A DNA stretch of 39,807 bases from a virus, in IMG/VR virus record IMGVR_UViG_3300044646_000548, positions 1-39,807 of that record; one strand, 5' to 3'. The notes under the pieces were generated by a model. The model did no database searches. It saw only the letters and a list, made by a program, of their open reading frames with translations, and was not told the origin of the DNA. Within the stretch, counting starts at the first letter, position 1. Every line of letters begins with the position of its first letter. The position numbers were made by a program, and so were the translations under genes. This document shows, piece after piece, positions 1,386-39,807 of the stretch.

Positions 1386-1414
1386 ATTGTATCACACTTA
1401 TGTCTATTTGTCAA
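1386..1414 (-). promoter_or_regulatory. Sigma70-type promoter for terS and the late genes (second copy)
   Basis: On the minus strand, TTGACA (1409-1414) and TACAAT (1386-1391) are separated by exactly 17 bases, which is near consensus. The predicted transcript start near 1379 gives a leader of about 240 bases before terS. The same promoter with small spacer changes occurs at 39396-39424 in front of the other terS. Confidence 0.8.
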
Positions 1415-1876: not shown

Positions 1877-1996
1877 GTACTGGGTAGGGTATCCAAGATA
1901 CTCCCAAGGGTATGCAACATACTGCACAGGGTATCTCTAAAGTTATGCACAAGTTACTCACAGGCTGTGGATAACATACTAGCAGGGGTATGAGTT
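1877..1996 (+). repeat. Iterons: 21-bp repeats with the core GGGTAT
   Basis: Three tandem units start at 1877, 1898 and 1919. Each has (A/G)TACT followed 10 bases after its first base by GGGTAT (cores at 1887, 1908 and 1929, exactly 21 bp apart). A fourth unit with the same internal layout starts at 1976 (core 1986), 57 bp after the third. This is the arrangement of initiator-binding iterons in theta-replicating plasmids and some phage origins. The units alternate with DnaA boxes on the right side. The protein that would bind them is not identified. Confidence 0.7.
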
Positions 1997-2195
1997 ATGC
2001 ACAGGCAAAGTCTTATATAAGAGTTGAAATTGTGGATAACTATGACTTGTGGTGTGGATAACACTTGCGAAGGGTTTAGTATGCAAAACGGAAATAATCG
2101 CTTATAGGTCGTTTAAACTGTTCACGGCATAAAAAGCATTAGGGTTTATACCTAAGGGTTTAAATATTTAAAATAATTTAATAAATTGTCTATTT
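1877..2195. other. Candidate replication origin: iterons, DnaA boxes, A+T-rich tract
   Basis: Five exact matches to the DnaA box TTATNCACA lie within 119 bases: TTATGCACA at 1943-1951 and 1995-2003 on the plus strand, and TTATCCACA on the minus strand at 1966-1974, 2031-2039 and 2053-2061. They overlap and follow the iterons. A run of A and T from about 2155 to 2195, just before the first plus-strand gene, could be the unwinding element. The order iterons, DnaA boxes, A+T-rich tract is that of classic iteron origins. The phage also has a T7-like primase-helicase and DNA polymerase that could act once the duplex is open. Confidence 0.7.
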
Positions 2196-2263
2196 GTAAG
2201 GTTCACGTAAGGTTCAAGCTTAATAATACATACATCGCAACACTAAACCAAAGGGTAATTATC

Positions 2264-2488
2264 ATGAGATATCAAAATACATTTGACATATGGGCTATCC
2301 CTTCGGATCTGCTCAAGTACGTGCAAGCCGGACAAATGATATATGCCGGAGACAAGGCCAACAAGGGGCGTTTTTTAGGCGTACGAAAATCAGGCACAAT
2401 TGTAGTCGCATGGCAAGGTAATATACAAAATCATAGTGACAAGCTGGGTTATATCAAAACCTTACGTAATTATGCAAAGGGGATCTAA
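2264..2488 (+). CDS. Small protein of unknown function, first gene after the origin
   Basis: A 74-residue protein. I chose the ATG at 2264 because AAGGG lies 9 bases upstream; the frame is also open upstream to a TTG at 2186. The sequence is compact and mixed (RYQNTFDIWAIP near the N-terminus, VAWQGN and GYIKTLRNYAKG near the end). No catalytic motif, signal peptide or membrane segment is visible. It leads a short run of genes with similar codon habits, many AAGG and GCAAG words and GGG before starts. Its place directly beside the iterons makes it one candidate for an origin-binding protein, but nothing in the residues shows that. Confidence 0.7.
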   Translation: MRYQNTFDIWAIPSDLLKYVQAGQMIYAGDKANKGRFLGVRKSGTIVVAWQGNIQNHSDKLGYIKTLRNYAKGI

Positions 2489-2489
2489 A

Positions 2490-2585
2490 ATGATAGATAA
2501 ATTAATTGACATATGCTTTGCCGTACTTATAGGGCTTATGCTTGCCATTGGCATGCTTGCATACTTTGACGTGCTCACAAAATAA
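2490..2585 (+). CDS. 31-residue single-pass membrane peptide
   Basis: A short open frame from ATG 2490, one base after the previous stop, with GGGG about 7 bases upstream. Residues 8-25 or so form one hydrophobic helix (CFAVLIGLMLAIGMLAYF) between short polar ends, so a bitopic inner-membrane peptide is likely. The function is unknown. Tight spacing to both neighbours supports real translation. Confidence 0.55.
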   Translation: MIDKLIDICFAVLIGLMLAIGMLAYFDVLTK

Positions 2586-2599
2586 ACTAGGGATATACC

Positions 2600-3469
2600 A
2601 TGCAAATTAAACTGTTTTCAAATAGTGCTCAAAAATTCAAAGCTTTGCAAGGGCTTGCAATAGCTATTCAAGGCGGCACGCAACATAGTGCCATGCAAGC
2701 TTTGAAGGGCTTGCAAGCTTCTAGCATGTTCACCGGAAAAGGTTGGCAAGATAATTTTGCAAAGCTTGAGCATACGTTTAAAACCTTAGATCCTAATTAT
2801 AGTGTGTTTTCTTTGAACGGTAATTCTAAGTTGCCGTTCGTATCATTTTCAAGCTTGCCCGGTGTTACATGTCCGGGAGCGGGTGAATGCTTAGATTTTT
2901 GCTATAGCTTCCGTGCATGGCGTTATCCCGCTGCATTTATGAGACAAGCCCAAAATGCATACTTAATGCGCTATGCTCCCGCTGCTATCGTCAAAGCTTT
3001 GCACATTGTAGATGCATCGTTTAAGGGTTCACAATATGACGTTCGTCTATATGTTGACGGTGACTTTAGCAGCGACAATGACGTGAAATTCTGGTTCGAC
3101 CTAATTAAAACGGTTCCTAATGCAAGGGTTTACGGTTATTCAAAAAGCTTCAATCAAATTATGTCTTATGCGGGCGAATTGCCGTCTAATTATGTGCTAA
3201 ATATATCCGGCGGCCACAATGCACATGGTGCAATGATCACGGCCATTAAAACCTTGTCTATAACTAGGGGCGAATTTATTGCCGTTCGTATAGGCAAAAA
3301 AGTACGTTCAAGTGATCACGGCAAGCCTGAAACCGTCAAAGCTTTAAGACAAGCATTCGAGGGAAAAGCTTTCCCATGTCCGGGAACATGCGGCACGTGC
3401 ACGGGCAAGGGCCATGCATGCGGCATGCAAGCTTTGAAGGGCGTGCCAATTATCATTGCCATGCATTAA
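2600..3469 (+). CDS. GP88-family cysteine-rich protein
   Basis: A 289-residue protein that resembles the 'gene product 88' family first named from mycobacteriophages, whose function is not established as far as I know. The diagnostic part is TCPGAGECLDFCYSFRAW, with Cys 91, 97 and 101 followed by an aromatic-rich stretch. A second cluster near the C-terminus (Cys 260, 264, 267, 274) looks like a metal or Fe-S site. The N-terminal 40 residues contain related repeats (KALQGL and MQALKGL), and MQALKG recurs at 276-281. The start is supported by GGG upstream and the 14-base gap from the previous gene. A hairpin followed by a T run lies downstream. The family call is from memory of the motif. Confidence 0.7.
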   Translation: MQIKLFSNSAQKFKALQGLAIAIQGGTQHSAMQALKGLQASSMFTGKGWQDNFAKLEHTFKTLDPNYSVFSLNGNSKLPFVSFSSLPGVTCPGAGECLDFCYSFRAWRYPAAFMRQAQNAYLMRYAPAAIVKALHIVDASFKGSQYDVRLYVDGDFSSDNDVKFWFDLIKTVPNARVYGYSKSFNQIMSYAGELPSNYVLNISGGHNAHGAMITAIKTLSITRGEFIAVRIGKKVRSSDHGKPETVKALRQAFEGKAFPCPGTCGTCTGKGHACGMQALKGVPIIIAMH

Positions 3470-3489
3470 TGATGCTAGATTCTAGAATG

Positions 3490-3539
3490 TAGCGCATGCT
3501 CATACGTGCGCTATATCCTACAATTTTCTGTAGGTTTTT
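3490..3539 (+). terminator. Hairpin pair and intrinsic terminator after the GP88 gene
   Basis: TAGCGCA (3490-3496) and TGCGCTA (3507-3513) form one hairpin. CCTACA (3517-3522) and TGTAGG (3529-3534) form a second, followed at once by TTTTT (3535-3539), the usual form of a rho-independent terminator. The stem is only 6 bp, so partial termination is possible. Genes continue in the same direction 24 bases later. Confidence 0.6.
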
Positions 3540-3562
3540 AATCCAAAGTAAGGGTAATTAAA

Positions 3563-3817
3563 ATGTCAAATACTATTGAAACCGTTCGTCCGCTGCACGT
3601 TATTGCACGGGATATCTATCAAGCATGGCCTAAGGTCAACTATGCGGCAAAACCGTACTTAGAAGCAATGCGGGATCTATCGTCAATCAATGATCGTTAT
3701 GGTTATGACGATGCAAGATCGATTGTCTTATACTTTTTGTCTAATGCTTCAAGCTTCCGGGGCGATAAAGCTAAGCTTTTAAAGCTTGAACTAAAAACCA
3801 TTGCCGGGATCAAATAA
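3563..3817 (+). CDS. Unknown 84-residue protein
   Basis: It starts at ATG 3563 behind AAGGGTAATT, the same ribosome-binding context as the gene at 2264, which suggests the two belong to one inherited block. The protein is mostly helical by eye (RDIYQAWPKVNYAAKPYLEAMRDL; DARSIVLYFLSNASSF; KLLKLELKTI) and ends in a basic stretch. No family recognised. The next gene begins one base after its stop. Confidence 0.65.
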   Translation: MSNTIETVRPLHVIARDIYQAWPKVNYAAKPYLEAMRDLSSINDRYGYDDARSIVLYFLSNASSFRGDKAKLLKLELKTIAGIK

Positions 3818-3818
3818 A

Positions 3819-4133
3819 ATGCTTAAACGTTATACATCATTACAAAAAACCCGCATTGTCAACAACATTGTAAGGGCTTGCAAAGATCCCGATAAGCTTA
3901 ATAAGCAAGGGTATCAATTTTTATATCTTGCAAGCGGGTTTATAGCGCATTACAATTTAAGGGGCTTTATTGGGCACTATTCCCAATGGCATAGCCTTAG
4001 AAGTGACATTCTAGAAAATCAACGGTTCAATCAATGGCACAATTTTGGCGTGAACGATAACGATCACGGTTATTACATGGATAAACGTGCTATATACAAT
4101 GCAATTTGTGCTCAGTTAAAACAAGGGGAATAA
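3819..4133 (+). CDS. Unknown 104-residue protein
   Basis: The ATG at 3819 follows the previous stop by one base, so translational coupling is likely; a TTG six codons upstream in the same frame is a less likely start. The protein is basic at the N-terminus (LKRYTSLQKTRIVNNIVRACKDP), rich in aromatic residues in the middle, and has HNFGVNDNDHGYYMDKRAIYNAICAQL near the end. No known domain is evident. It shares composition and tight spacing with its neighbours at 3563 and 4135. Confidence 0.65.
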   Translation: MLKRYTSLQKTRIVNNIVRACKDPDKLNKQGYQFLYLASGFIAHYNLRGFIGHYSQWHSLRSDILENQRFNQWHNFGVNDNDHGYYMDKRAIYNAICAQLKQGE

Positions 4134-4134
4134 C

Positions 4135-4332
4135 ATGCTACAAATAAACGATTACAAGCGCAAAACCAAAGAACAGTTGCGCTATATCATCGATGATGCT
4201 ACATTGGCGGCAAGGGCTATGCAATCAATCGGCAATAGTGCTGCAGAGGGCAAGTATAGGGATCAAGTGAACGATGCATGCTCCGAGCTATATAAAAGGT
4301 CTATTAAGGTTTTAAGGGGAAAGAAAACATGA
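4135..4332 (+). CDS. Unknown 65-residue basic helical protein
   Basis: It starts one base after the preceding stop, with AAGGGG just upstream. The sequence looks helical and amphipathic (YKRKTKEQLRYIIDDATLAARAMQ, then KYRDQVNDACSELYKRSIKVLRG), with Lys and Arg spread throughout. It could bind nucleic acid, but there is no motif to say so. Its stop overlaps the next start in an ATGA (4329-4332). Confidence 0.65.
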   Translation: MLQINDYKRKTKEQLRYIIDDATLAARAMQSIGNSAAEGKYRDQVNDACSELYKRSIKVLRGKKT

Positions 4333-4460
4333 TAAAACGTATGAGGGCAAGGTTTAAGGGGCTATGCTGCAGATCCGGTGCATGTATCAACATTGGCGAT
4401 GAAATTATGTATGATACAGTGACACGGCAAGCATGGATTACAGTGGACAATGACAGATAA
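4329..4460 (+). CDS. 43-residue Cys-containing small protein
   Basis: A short frame starting in the ATGA overlap with the previous gene. It contains RARFKGLCCRSGACINIGDEIMYDT. This resembles a shortened form of the small phage zinc-binding module in which a Cys pair is followed by 'I..GD.I.Y' and later a His/Cys pair. The distal His and Cys ligands are missing here, so zinc binding is uncertain. The function is unknown. The overlapping start supports translation. Confidence 0.55.
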   Translation: MIKRMRARFKGLCCRSGACINIGDEIMYDTVTRQAWITVDNDR

Positions 4461-4468
4461 GGATTAAA

Positions 4469-4633
4469 ATGAATACTAAACTACTAAAACACTCACGTGA
4501 ACTATTCAAGTCTTACGATGTGCCTGAGCACGTGCGACGAAGTTATAGGCTTAAATGGGTGAGATCAATCAGAAACCTAGGTGATAAGTGGCTATTTGCC
4601 CATCATGTACAACGTAAGGACACACAATCATGA
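4469..4633 (+). CDS. Unknown 54-residue basic protein
   Basis: ATG at 4469 with AAGGA (4459-4463) at good spacing. The protein is strongly basic and rich in His and Trp (LLKHSRELFKSYDVPEHVRRSYRLKWVRSIRN; KWLFAHHVQRK), which fits nucleic-acid contact but proves nothing. Its TGA overlaps the next ATG at 4630-4633. Confidence 0.55.
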   Translation: MNTKLLKHSRELFKSYDVPEHVRRSYRLKWVRSIRNLGDKWLFAHHVQRKDTQS

Positions 4634-4926
4634 CTATCGACACAATAACCTTTCACTTTGTAGGTCAATTAGAGGATTCAGGGGCTATCGTTGATGTTCA
4701 ATGTCAGATTGACGAAGACGGGGACTGCAGAGACTTAGATTCTGTGGTCTATAGAAGCTCAAATGTCCTTGAGGTTATCTCACATAGTCAGTGGTCAGAC
4801 CTTGAATGGCAAGCATCAAAGGCTTATAAGCTTGAGAAGATTGAACAACAGACCATTGACCATGACAACAATAGCACTTTGGAAGCCATCTATGGCCTCT
4901 TAAAGCCATCATTTTACATTAGGTAA
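4630..4926 (+). CDS. Unknown 98-residue acidic protein
   Basis: It starts within an ATGA overlap. The N-terminal half reads as beta strands with many acidic residues (DTITFHFVGQLEDSGAIVDVQCQIDEDGDC), and the C-terminal half is helical. No family recognised. It ends at 4926, overlapping by 8 bases the end of the opposite-strand HNH gene, so the two are tail to tail and the plus-strand block is interrupted here. Confidence 0.6.
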   Translation: MTIDTITFHFVGQLEDSGAIVDVQCQIDEDGDCRDLDSVVYRSSNVLEVISHSQWSDLEWQASKAYKLEKIEQQTIDHDNNSTLEAIYGLLKPSFYIR

Positions 4927-25337: not shown

Positions 25338-25813
25338 GGTGCATCAGGCCAAGTAATAGTCCAAGGGAAACCTTCTTGCGCTGTAATGTCACGCAAGGCT
25401 TGACGATATGTCGCCCATACTGTTTTGTCAACAGGTGCATCGGCTACTTGAGTCCAATCACACTCAGCTAACTTAGCATCACGGCTCTGACGAACACTCT
25501 TAGCCTGTTCAGCATCTTTAGTGGCTTTGTAGGCTACTTCTTGTTCAGCAGCAGTTGTCTCACCATCAGTAAAGACAGGGCCAAGCACATACTTGGTATA
25601 CCACTTTCCATCAATCTGCTCAACACCAGAGGCTTGAGAGTATTGGTAAACAGTACCGCCAGTTGCTTGTGGGCCTTCAAAGACTACATCAGCACCCAAA
25701 GCCTCTAAGACTTCAGTTGTTGTTGTTTCCCATGATGGGCCACCATTGGCTTTTGTGTATGCACGAAATTCTGCTTCGTACATGACTGCGCCTGATTGTG
25801 TTCGTATTTGCAT
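25334..25813 (-). CDS. Tail fibre assembly chaperone-like protein
   Basis: A 159-residue protein. Its C-terminus, RDAKLAECDWTQVADAPVDK followed by WATYRQALRDITAQEGFPWTITWPDAP, is the 'phage tail assembly chaperone' domain (PF16778 type), usually encoded next to a fibre gene. The N-terminus is beta-rich. It is separated from the fibre at 26577 by a GIY-YIG nuclease gene, which suggests that the nuclease inserted between two functionally linked genes. Confidence 0.75.
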   Translation of the reverse strand: MQIRTQSGAVMYEAEFRAYTKANGGPSWETTTTEVLEALGADVVFEGPQATGGTVYQYSQASGVEQIDGKWYTKYVLGPVFTDGETTAAEQEVAYKATKDAEQAKSVRQSRDAKLAECDWTQVADAPVDKTVWATYRQALRDITAQEGFPWTITWPDAP

Positions 25814-26574
25814 TATTGTTTCCTTTCATGCCAGCGTTTGCCAGATGCACGTTTTGGTAAATTAAGAAGACCATTTATAGCCTCCCACTCAGGTTGATAT
25901 TTTTTTAAACCATCCCAAGAGAATTTAAATTCTTCCATTGCTTGCGAACGAGTTTTGTTATTAGCCACAGCCCAAGTAAGACCATTAAACACCCTAGCTT
26001 TTGATAAATCTCTTTGTCGTTGATGTACTTCATCACTAAAAGGTTTATATCCATTGGCTTTGCGTGTTGCAACAGCTTTTGCCCTTACTTCAGGTTTAGC
26101 CGCTTTTGCACATCTGTCTGCAACAACCTCTGGGGTTTGCATCCATGCTTGATGTTTTTTTGCGCTTTCACTTTTAGACAAACTTTCTTTAATTCTTGCT
26201 CTAGCTTGTTCTGATGCTTTTTTACCTCGCCTAGCATCGCCCCACTTGCGTTTAGTTTCTTCAGAATGTTTTTGACCAAGAAACCCACCAACAGAGTTTT
26301 TATGAGCGTTGTATAAGCGACCCGTGTCAAAACATTCTTCAAGAACAAACGATTCAAGTTCTTCTAGTCGTTCAACAACTTCAGGCCAAACAAGTTTAAA
26401 TTCAAAGTCTTGCTCAGTCCTTGATGACCATGAGTGCTGTAAACGGGGATTCTTATGGCGACCAGCACGTAAGTCAGATAAGTGCCTACGCTTTCTAGCG
26501 AGCCAATCAATGGTACGCCCAATGTAGGACATACCAGTTGAAAGGTTTTTAATCTGATAGATTCCGCTATTCAT
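25813..26574 (-). CDS. GIY-YIG homing endonuclease with NUMOD-type DNA-binding region
   Basis: A 253-residue nuclease. GIY is at 4-6 and YIG at 17-19, with the catalytic Arg in RRHLSDLRAGRHKN and the Glu expected in the ELESFVLEECFD helix. After residue 95, GGFLGQKHSEETKRKWGDAR followed by RGKKASEQARARIKESLS is a NUMOD3-like DNA-contact repeat. A C-terminal helix-turn-helix-like part (WAVANNKTRSQAMEEFKFSW) follows. No intron is visible, so it is free-standing. The start overlaps nothing; its stop touches the chaperone start. Confidence 0.88.
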   Translation of the reverse strand: MNSGIYQIKNLSTGMSYIGRTIDWLARKRRHLSDLRAGRHKNPRLQHSWSSRTEQDFEFKLVWPEVVERLEELESFVLEECFDTGRLYNAHKNSVGGFLGQKHSEETKRKWGDARRGKKASEQARARIKESLSKSESAKKHQAWMQTPEVVADRCAKAAKPEVRAKAVATRKANGYKPFSDEVHQRQRDLSKARVFNGLTWAVANNKTRSQAMEEFKFSWDGLKKYQPEWEAINGLLNLPKRASGKRWHERKQ

Positions 26575-37509: not shown

Positions 37510-38784
37510 TTAATAACCTGATATAACGTCTAAGACTTCGTAGTCATCATCTTCGTAGTCTGTGTTGTAGCTTGTGATAGCTAACTGGTCAATGTAACTT
37601 AAAGCATCTACCAAGTCATCATGTACACCAGCTGTGGGGAACATCACTAATTGATCTCTAAACTCACTCCAGTCTTCTTTCTCATTAAAGGATACCCTTC
37701 CATGTTCCATACGACCTTGTAAGCTCCAGACAACCCTATCAGTCTTCTTCTTATTACCGTGAGTTAAATCCTGTATGTGAGCATAGATGTTATTCTTTCT
37801 CATCAAGTCATTTAGGTAGGGCAGTACAGCATTCTTCAATGCTCCTCGCTCAATACCAATGCTTGTAGGCTGGAAGTCTCTAACCACCTTCAAGATGTTA
37901 ACTGCAGTCTCTCTAATGTCCCACCTACCATGCTGTATCTTGTGAACCCACCAATCACCATTGTCCTCAAGCTTAACTACAGCAATAGCTGTCTCATCTA
38001 ATCTCTTCTTAGATGCACCTGCATTCTTACCAACCTCTTCAAAGCCAGCTAAGTCAATGGCTACAATGTATGTACCAAACTGAGGTTCTTCAGCAGTCTT
38101 GAACCATTCCTCTTTGAAGACATCTGCACCTGCAGTATCAAAGCTAGACAGGTATTCCTGCTTGAATGCAAAAGAACTCAGTGTTCTCTTTGCAGCCTCA
38201 ACTTCCTTAGGATCAATAGTCTCATTGTCAGCTGTTGTGAAGTGCCATGACTTCCATTCTTCATCTATCTGGTCAGCCTTGTCTTCAAAGCTACCTAGCT
38301 TAAAGATGTCATAGAACCAGTTACGACCTGATGGTGTTGAGATAAATAAAGCTCTACCCTTTTTGTCTGACAGTGAAGCTCGTATGATTTTCTGCCACGT
38401 ATCTTCTTTAACGAAAGCACACTCATCAAGTACTACAAAGGTCAGTGAGACACCTCGGAGACTATCTGGGTTATCTGCACCTCGTACTAGAATCTTCCTA
38501 CCATTGATTAAGGTTATCTCAAGATTATTGATGTGACTTGCTTTGATGACTGGTCTACCCAGCTCATGCAGTAAGTCCCACATAATCGTTCTAGCTTGTC
38601 CTAGGGTAGGTGCTATGTACATCACAGCTGAGCCTTCAGGACAGTTTAAACCTTCAATCAGTAACGATATAGCTGACAGCCTTGACTTACCACAACGTCT
38701 ACCTGCAGCTACAACTTTAAAGCGAGTAGTATCTTTAAAGACACTCTGTTGCCACTTAAGCAGTTGGAAGTTAAGTTCAGACAT
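37510..38784 (-). CDS. terL: Terminase large subunit, complete
   Basis: A 424-residue packaging motor. ATPase: Walker A AAGRRCGKSR (about 27-36), Walker B FVVLDECAF, coupling motif ISTPSGRN. RNase H-like nuclease: VAIDLAG (first Asp), GIERGALKNA (Glu) and GVHDDLVDALSY (last Asp pair). It pumps DNA into the procapsid through the portal and cuts the concatemer. ATG 38784 overlaps the terS stop by 8 bases. Its upstream part is the homologue of 1-750. Confidence 0.95.
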   Translation of the reverse strand: MSELNFQLLKWQQSVFKDTTRFKVVAAGRRCGKSRLSAISLLIEGLNCPEGSAVMYIAPTLGQARTIMWDLLHELGRPVIKASHINNLEITLINGRKILVRGADNPDSLRGVSLTFVVLDECAFVKEDTWQKIIRASLSDKKGRALFISTPSGRNWFYDIFKLGSFEDKADQIDEEWKSWHFTTADNETIDPKEVEAAKRTLSSFAFKQEYLSSFDTAGADVFKEEWFKTAEEPQFGTYIVAIDLAGFEEVGKNAGASKKRLDETAIAVVKLEDNGDWWVHKIQHGRWDIRETAVNILKVVRDFQPTSIGIERGALKNAVLPYLNDLMRKNNIYAHIQDLTHGNKKKTDRVVWSLQGRMEHGRVSFNEKEDWSEFRDQLVMFPTAGVHDDLVDALSYIDQLAITSYNTDYEDDDYEVLDVISGY

Positions 38785-39139
38785 CTATGACCTCTTCGTC
38801 ACTTGTACTTACCATTGTTGGAGATGTAAGACCTGTAATGTTGATAGACACTGTTGGTGTATTGTTACCTGACTTCTGTGCCTCAAAGACACTTACTGGG
38901 ACAATCCTATCAACAATTAACTTCCACGCTGCTGCTTGATTCTTATGTTCATCATTCAATGCTGCATCATAAATAGCTTCTAGAACCTTAGCACTCTTAG
39001 GTGAGTTAAGCATTCTAAGCTTATATTCATTGATGATGGCTGCATCACCTTTAGGTCTACCTACACTACGGTTCTCACCTATAGACTTTAAAGCCTTAGT
39101 GGATGTTCGACCTATCTTATTACCTGTTGGTTTAGTCAT
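38777..39139 (-). CDS. terS: Terminase small subunit
   Basis: A 120-residue protein directly upstream of terL. It has the shared SVGRPKGDA, LNDEH, DRIVPVSVFEAQ and C-terminal SINITGLTSPTMVSTSDEEVIDV, but a different N-terminal 30 residues from the copy at 747-1139. The divergent half is the expected DNA-binding end and the conserved half is the probable oligomer/TerL-binding end. The ribosome site (AGGA) is 14 bases away, further than in the other copy because of a small insertion before the ATG. Confidence 0.8.
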   Translation of the reverse strand: MTKPTGNKIGRTSTKALKSIGENRSVGRPKGDAAIINEYKLRMLNSPKSAKVLEAIYDAALNDEHKNQAAAWKLIVDRIVPVSVFEAQKSGNNTPTVSINITGLTSPTMVSTSDEEVIDV

Positions 39140-39341
39140 TTCGTTCGTCTTTGTCCTCTATCAGGGAGACTTTCTAAGTATAGTACTATAGAGTACTAAG
39201 ACATTATATTTAAGTTATAAAGACATAATATTAATTTACTTATAAAGTATGTATTTAATACAACTTAAATTAATCTAAGTGTGTTTTAACTACTATGTTC
39301 CCCTACTAGGGTGTACGCCTTCGGCTATACATCTCAGACTA

Positions 39342-39369
39342 ACTTAGAAGTGGGGTCAGGCTTCTTAGT
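39342..39369 (-). promoter_or_regulatory. Leader hairpin, covarying counterpart of 1332-1359
   Basis: Arms ACTTAGAAG and CTTCTTAGT around the conserved loop TGGGGTCAGG. Relative to 1332-1359, one T-A pair has become A-T with both sides changed. The internal mismatch is the same in both copies. Confidence 0.55.
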
Positions 39370-39395
39370 AAACTCAATTATATCCTATGAAGAAT

Positions 39396-39424
39396 ATTGT
39401 ATCATACTTTTGTCTATTTGTCAA
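39396..39424 (-). promoter_or_regulatory. Sigma70-type promoter for terS and the late genes
   Basis: TTGACA (39419-39424) and TACAAT (39396-39401), 17 bases apart on the minus strand, as in the copy at 1386-1414. The spacer differs at two positions only. The predicted start near 39389 gives a 250-base leader. Confidence 0.8.
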
Positions 39425-39461
39425 GCTTTTATTGTTGTGTACACATATATTTCTTCTTTTG

Positions 39462-39477
39462 TGTGATTACAGTCACA
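39462..39477. promoter_or_regulatory. CRP/FNR-type operator, second copy
   Basis: TGTGATTACAGTCACA again fits TGTGA-N6-TCACA exactly, at the same distance from the promoter as the site at 1452-1467, although sequence just beyond it has diverged. Confidence 0.5.
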
Positions 39478-39602
39478 TATATGTTAACTTAGACGTTCCC
39501 CTTTTCAAGGGTGTCTGGTTTGTACTTTGAAGTTCTACTTTAGCCTTACGAATCATAGGGTTATCTCTGATTACTCTGCTGGTCTATATTCTTCTTTTTG
39601 TG

Positions 39603-39696
39603 AACTTCAGAGGCTCCTACAATAATATTCATACCTACGATGACCCTCCCCCCCTATGAAGTTAGTTAGTGCTTACTTTGTAGATGCTCTGAAGTT
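39603..39696. repeat. Nested inverted repeat, second copy
   Basis: Outer arms AACTTCAGAG with CTACAAT (39603-39612, 39617-39623) and TTTGTAG with CTCTGAAGTT (39677-39683, 39687-39696). The inner arms are shorter here (TTCATA and TATGAA). It is the counterpart of 1641-1732. Confidence 0.6.
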
Positions 39697-39729
39697 AGTA
39701 AGCACTCACTTCAAAGTCATAAGTGTACT

Positions 39730-39807
39730 TACTATCTAGATCTAAATAGGAATCATTCGCATTTAGCATAGGTCACGTGTGAGGGACGATGCAGGATCCT
39801 CTGATGT
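39730..39807. repeat. 78-bp exact repeat of 1766-1843 at the window end
   Basis: Identical to 1766-1843. The genome continues from base 1844 if the unit is circularly closed. See the entry at 1766. Confidence 0.85.

Follow-up and report, generated by a model that had tools for sequence, protein, structure and literature searches.

In a freshwater podovirus genome, the DNA at 1874-2133 may well be one allele of an exchangeable, host-wired cassette that controls early transcription. The window, as we call the whole stretch of 39,807 nt analysed here (an IMG/VR virus record), had been given an initial annotation that described this place as a plasmid-like origin of the iteron-regulated theta type. 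The observation behind that description is real and was confirmed. Taken together, our results favour a control region that senses the host, either in place of a plasmid-like origin or in addition to one, and a role of the cassette in replication initiation is possible.

Genome organization and likely host

The rightward genes of the phage encode a T7-like primase-helicase, PolA, an exonuclease, endonuclease I, a metallophosphoesterase and RNR, and the leftward genes encode terminase, portal, capsid, tail and lysis proteins. A GIY-YIG homing-endonuclease-like gene (25813-26574) is present within the late operon. The primase is 44-51% identical to those of SIO1-type and Pelagibacter podoviruses, which have the same six rightward genes and lack an RNA polymerase; unlike these marine phages, the clade examined here is from freshwater. 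The claim that the phage lacks an RNA polymerase of its own agreed with our searches, in which Pfam and PHROGs gave 0 matches to such an enzyme among the proteins scanned. The phage RNA polymerase and cognate promoters of a T7-type primary origin were accordingly not found among these proteins.

Positions 1-1843 are a diverged second copy (82-94% identity) of 38020-39807, which covers the terminase and the left divergent region. This duplication had gone unnoticed. The two copies appear to be a strain-chimeric contig end and not a real tandem repeat, so that the contig closes a genome of ~37.96 kb by way of a variant strain. The relatives L036 and L082 have the same order across 1843/1844, which supports this join. 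Concerning the host, the conserved core described below is also carried by Limnohabitans phage DC31 and Curvibacter phage P26059A, which indicates Comamonadaceae hosts, and we infer that the phage studied here infects a member of this family.

An exchangeable cassette upstream of the early genes

The cassette sits between the two main blocks of genes, and its features and surroundings are as follows. Strand is given where one was assigned, and fractions of 25 refer to type-A relatives.

1813-1873: flank in common with type D (97% identity with L036), reaching to the edge of the cassette
1874-2133: exchangeable type-A cassette; the same place in relatives holds the non-homologous type B, C or D
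1878-1892, plus strand: TACT-N5-GGGTAT unit 1, GGGTAT in 11/25
1899-1913, plus strand: TACT-N5-GGGTAT unit 2, GGGTAT in 17/25
1920-1934, plus strand: TACT-N5-GGGTAT unit 3, GGGTAT in 11/25
1943-1951, plus strand: DnaA box 1, TTATGCACA, consensus in 24/25
1966-1974, minus strand: DnaA box 2, TTATCCACA, 25/25
1977-1991, plus strand: TACT-N5-GGGTAT unit 4, GGGTAT invariant, 25/25
1995-2003, plus strand: DnaA box 3, TTATGCACA, exact consensus in 20/25
2010-2022: SdhR-type operator core GTCTTATATAAGA, between the inverted DnaA boxes 3 and 4, 25/25
2031-2039, minus strand: DnaA box 4, TTATCCACA, 23/25
2053-2061, minus strand: DnaA box 5, TTATCCACA, 12/25
2062-2120: downstream part of the core, comprising a GC-rich AGGGGT-like block plus CGTTTAAA; retained also by phages that do not belong to the clade
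2151-2195: A+T-rich tract, 84% AT, noted in the initial annotation
2194-2215, plus strand: 11-bp direct repeats TTGTAAGGTTC/ACGTAAGGTTC, response-regulator-like, in place of a -35 box; types A and D, not B or C
2224-2229, plus strand: TAATAC, a -10-like element of the predicted early promoter that reads rightward
2264-2488, plus strand: gene for a 74-residue basic protein (g2264, phrog_21585), in 17/21 type-A and 0/16 other genomes

When the window was aligned with the type-D locus L036, homology ran through 1873 and resumed at 2134; the DNA between these points is unrelated. We tallied 37 distinct loci by cassette type: 21 were of type A, 5 of type B, 5 of type C and 6 of type D. Type B (L012, L018, L038, L058 and L070) combines NtrC-like sites, DnaA boxes and a sigma54 promoter; L038 and L058 were assigned to it on inspection, their automatic label A having come from a distant palindrome. 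Type C (L010, L027, L035, L048 and L062) has no boxes; it holds GGCAAWATTTRCC in three copies with a 21-bp period, together with a sigma54 promoter. In both types, what looks like a sigma54 promoter takes up the early slot of a lytic phage. SdhR-type sites are found in type D, which has no box cluster; in L036 there is also an array with a period of ~23 bp. The sigma54 motif was confined to types B and C, and the promoter with 11-bp direct repeats to types A and D.

The site labels for NtrC, CRP, Fur and sigma54 follow established consensus sequences. The strict NtrC pattern GCAC-N7-GTGC was absent from the divergent regions, and the site in question is the looser CACCANNNTRGTGC. In one Limnohabitans genome, a site resembling the type-B one is found upstream of glnA. 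The operator motifs concentrate in the divergent region. Given that two of the alternative alleles, B and C, have the plain appearance of sigma54 promoters equipped with operator arrays, the slot would be one for promoter control. With both sigma54 promoters and phased operator-like arrays among the alleles, its common function is most simply early-transcription control by host regulators.

We then compared the distribution of the cassette types with phylogeny. Mapped on the primase tree, the label requires 16 changes (mean for shuffled labels 14.8), and on a tree of the adjacent 600 bp (left flank) 15 (14.9), in neither case fewer than shuffled labels. L031, of type A, and L027, of type C, have an identical primase. 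Cassette type is scrambled with respect to both trees, and exchange is frequent.

DnaA boxes and GGGTAT units

All five exact TTATNCACA boxes described in the initial annotation were located, within a span of 119 bases (1943-2061). Further exact boxes number only two, at 1427 and 11029. In 2,000 dinucleotide shuffles of the divergent region (1140-2263), none contained even three boxes or more within ~127 bp, which bears out the view that so tight a cluster is very unlikely to arise by chance. In box 1, the eight fixed letters are 96-100% identical among the 25 type-A relatives and the free N position is 32% identical. Fixed letters held while N drifts are the pattern expected if DnaA reads the site. 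Recognition by DnaA looks to be under selection, and host DnaA is very probably a ligand of the boxes. With the published description of DnaA-trios as a guide (PMC8287927), inspection by eye at ~10-13 bp from a box gave no clear run of three. Three loci, L009, L053 and L085, have a second cluster of three same-direction DnaA boxes ~130-150 bp to the left of the core.

Concerning the GGGTAT cores, three of them (1887, 1908 and 1929) are indeed 21 bp apart, and a fourth (1986) has the same internal layout, each lying inside TACT-N5-GGGTAT. This is the true spacing of the unit; a count with the pattern ATACT-N6-GGGTAT gives 0. Three GGGTAT at 21-bp intervals were found in 0/2000 dinucleotide shuffles of 1140-2263. 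On the other hand, some 6-mer occurring three times at an equal spacing of 15-30 bp was found in 4/300 shuffles, which makes the triplet of iterons, taken by itself, no more than moderately unusual. Genome-wide, GGGTAT is not enriched (11 observed, 11.2 expected). Alignment of relatives gave a divided answer on the 21-bp period: the tandem units 1-3 are retained in only 11, 17 and 11 of the 25, whereas unit 4 is present in every one. Cassettes C and D, which have no boxes, contain phased arrays of 21-23 bp too, and such arrays are therefore not specific to origins. A host counterpart of the GGGTAT array or of the type-C repeats was sought and rejected, as the Limnohabitans matches look like chance and are mostly intragenic.

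A host SdhR-type operator core among the boxes

The palindrome GTCTTATATAAGA at 2010-2022 had been missed in the initial annotation. Together with box 2 and GGGTAT unit 4 it is invariant in the 25 type-A relatives, and box 4 is nearly so. SdhR, a regulator of carbon metabolism of the GntR/HutC type, recognizes TCTTATGTCTTATATAAGACATAAGA (PMC4494728), and the phage site holds only the central 13-14 bp of this 26-bp consensus. Type-D relatives carry the right half of the palindrome as well. When one mismatch was allowed, CTTATATAAGACATAAG-type sites were found in 12/12 Limnohabitans genomes, and the reversed control gave 0. The sites inspected are either flanked by mdh and, in the opposite direction, by a GntR-UTRA gene followed by sdhC, or lie upstream of aceA; the shorter AGTCTTATATAAGA also adjoins an aminotransferase-like gene. 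The same operator is thus present in a likely host near sdhR and TCA genes. By its motif, the phage palindrome corresponds to the core of the host SdhR (GntR) operator.

The part common to 37 divergent cores, phages outside the clade included, reads box, palindrome, inverted box, box, GC-rich block and CGTTTAAA. It is found in two isolates whose genomes differ much in size from that of the phage studied here, DC31 (76 kb) and P26059A (84 kb). In these the nearest gene is some 250-400 bp away, and the orientation of the core to the neighbouring genes varies. We found no report of these elements in phages in the literature searched, which was incomplete.

Early-transcription control or replication origin

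The reading that we rank first places the cassette just upstream of the rightward early transcription unit. Host DnaA on the five boxes, a host SdhR-like GntR regulator and a putative reader of TACT-N5-GGGTAT would assemble on it, and the complex would determine how active the proposed early promoter (about 2194-2229) is, so that expression of the early genes would be tied to the replication and carbon state of the host, and in the sister alleles to nitrogen state (NtrC/sigma54) or to SdhR alone. The arrangement of sites suggests protein binding, the direction in which it acts and a coupling to the early promoter. Since transcription and origin activation can be coupled, as at oriLambda, the same complex might also help to start replication. 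Several points weigh against control of early transcription. The phage SdhR site is confined to the centre of the consensus, and no host counterpart of the GGGTAT units was found in Limnohabitans. The position and orientation of the core in DC31 and P26059A are more like those of an enhancer, a decoy or an origin than of a simple promoter operator, and operators predicted in phage genomes are unreliable, as has been warned (PMC10976474).

A possible but distinctly less probable reading is a DnaA-dependent origin, in which the boxes are bound, A+T-rich DNA is melted and the T7-type primase-helicase enters, with the GGGTAT units serving an accessory role or binding an initiator. On this view the exchanged modules would be origins; exchange of replication modules has a precedent in what has been proposed for PLE, a satellite of phage ICP1 (PMC8263062). 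The tight and strongly conserved box cluster, a core common to phages of different size and the lack of an RNA polymerase match among the scanned proteins all agree with such an origin. It is difficult to reconcile with the near-complete type-C and type-D genomes, which contain only 1-4 scattered DnaA boxes and no cluster anywhere; the clade evidently replicates without needing one. A box cluster, which an oriC-like element would require in all members, is missing from these sisters. The resemblance of alleles B and C to sigma54 promoters is a further objection, as are the absence of the 2151-2195 tract from some type-A relatives and the lack of an initiator homologue among the neighbouring genes scanned.

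Cumulative GC skew had been proposed as a means of locating the origin, and the region does lie at the skew minimum. However, this minimum falls in the divergent region, at the divergence point, for types A, C and D alike, box-less genomes included, and in DC31 and P26059A it is far from the core. Skew goes with the orientation of the genes and is no guide to where the origin lies, and we discarded it as evidence. A copied host oriC was also considered and was not borne out in the regions searched: the dnaA-proximal region of 80 Burkholderiales has mostly one exact box and no CTTATATAAG (the DnaA query was a beta-proteobacterial consensus, and only the loci that it fetched were used). The pattern of boxes plus palindrome was found in 0/151 family genomes and 0 times in the collection of genome contigs.

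Improbable, in our estimation, is a decoy, in which amplified phage DNA titrates host DnaA and SdhR in the manner of datA, blocking rounds of host replication and derepressing TCA/glyoxylate genes. A cluster of perfect boxes would suit titration, as would the gene-distant core of variable orientation outside the clade and the SdhR-type sites without boxes in type D. Precise spacing and the invariance of unit 4 and the palindrome exceed what a decoy needs, and the position upstream of the early promoter, allelic to sigma54 promoters, also speaks against it; DnaA supply would moreover have to be limiting.

The plasmid-type origin itself, controlled by iterons and by a phage-encoded Rep-like initiator on the GGGTAT units, is very unlikely: 21-bp phased units do stand beside conserved, exact DnaA boxes and A+T-rich DNA, and the small basic g2264 travels with type A, but roughly half of the type-A genomes lack the tandem units, sister alleles are box-less or of sigma54 type, and no Rep or initiator family was matched (Pfam, PHROGs) among the scanned proteins encoded at 2264-4926. 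Among plasmids, the consensus core matches nothing in PLSDB. Of the suggestion that the phage recruits host DnaA plus a further initiator, the first half is supported by box conservation and by the core shared with DC31 and P26059A, and the second found no homologue among the neighbours scanned. Early-transcription control is ranked first, the DnaA-dependent origin second, the decoy third and the plasmid-type origin last because of the box-less type-C and type-D genomes, the uninformative skew, the sigma54 alleles and the ability of DnaA to do both.

Relation to known systems and significance

Host DnaA has been reported to stimulate transcriptional activation of oriLambda (PMC3985674), and the lambda pR-pO/oriLambda region resembles the cassette as a phage control region where DnaA-stimulated transcription activates replication. 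Lambda has O-protein iterons and O/P initiators, none of which were recognized in this phage, and here, unlike in lambda, the boxes are densely clustered and belong to a cassette that can be swapped. In cyanophages, host PhoBR controls phage genes, with EMSA support (PMC10976474). A host regulator acting through operators in phage DNA, here predicted, is common to both; Pho boxes lie at auxiliary or replication genes, whereas here the early control slot itself would offer several host circuits as alleles. Theta origins of iteron plasmids share with the cassette the ordered succession of phased repeats, then DnaA boxes, then an A+T-rich tract. They differ from the present case, where no Rep gene was recognized, the tandem repeats are not conserved and box-less alleles occupy the same place. 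Swaps of the origin or replication module in PLE have been attributed to an origin-cutting nuclease (PMC8263062). There too a short replication or control module is exchanged in the evolution of a mobile element, but the alternatives here include sigma54 promoters.

We tentatively propose, with less confidence than for the control function itself, that this clade of lytic freshwater podoviruses shares a pool of interchangeable early-control cassettes, each on a different host circuit, with phylogenetic signal erased by exchange. The circuits would be DnaA and SdhR, NtrC/sigma54 and DnaA, another sigma54 activator, and SdhR alone. The cassette would set which host state licenses the lytic programme, the DnaA version tying that licence to the host replication initiator. 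If this is true, the timing of lysis in common freshwater phages would be decided by host DnaA, SdhR and NtrC as inputs. The question bears on how T7-type phages without their own RNA polymerase begin early transcription and replication. The slot, 260 bp long, exists as four natural alleles in genomes that are otherwise close relatives, and a comparison of these alleles is a direct test of which host state or protein licenses infection. Frequent exchange suggests selection on the control region by competition, satellite attack or host heterogeneity.

Genes travelling with the cassette types

Outside the clade, the 74-residue gene is often found within ~1.3 kb of the core, on either side. The structural model of its product was confident (pLDDT 88.7). 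It had no clear PDB match and no significant Foldseek match, with Z < 3 among the chains looked at, and we therefore assign it no function. A gene for a 66-residue protein (beginning MKEQLIHITYKDQYGIHSYSLEGF) is present in 10/10 sigma54-type genomes (B and C) and in no others. Part of the association between genes and cassettes is physical linkage. At 2600-3469, a GP88-domain gene (PF17338) and its neighbours are present in 6/6 type-D and few type-A genomes.

Other elements of the divergent region

Left of the cassette, the divergent region contains the following.

1195-1290: A+T-rich tract, 87.5% AT, the A+T-richest of the region, common to all cassette types examined
1386-1414, minus strand: strong sigma70-type promoter, TTGACA-17-TACAAT with TG before the -10, toward the terminase/late operon
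1452-1467: CRP-consensus palindrome TGTGATTTCAGTCACA, upstream of the leftward promoter; predicted binding site
1785-1802: degenerate Fur-box-like GGAATCATTCGCAT, full TGAGAATCATTCNCA in 12/39 relatives; predicted binding site

The A+T-rich tract noted after the boxes exists, at 2151-2195, but some type-A relatives lack it, and the richer tract at 1195-1290 is an alternative candidate for a melting element. The leftward promoter and the CRP consensus had also escaped the initial annotation. TGTGAN6TCACA is present in 27/39 related divergent regions, against 4 matches in 508 kb elsewhere, and the Fur box in 12/39 divergent loci, against 0 in the same 508 kb; these counts are not independent, because related sequences share ancestry. 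The CRP palindrome is perfect and kept in both strain copies (1452-1467 and 39462-39477). A Fur-box-like AATGAGAATCATTCGCAT occurs in relatives (for example L010 and L012) and also in the Limnohabitans genome L363.
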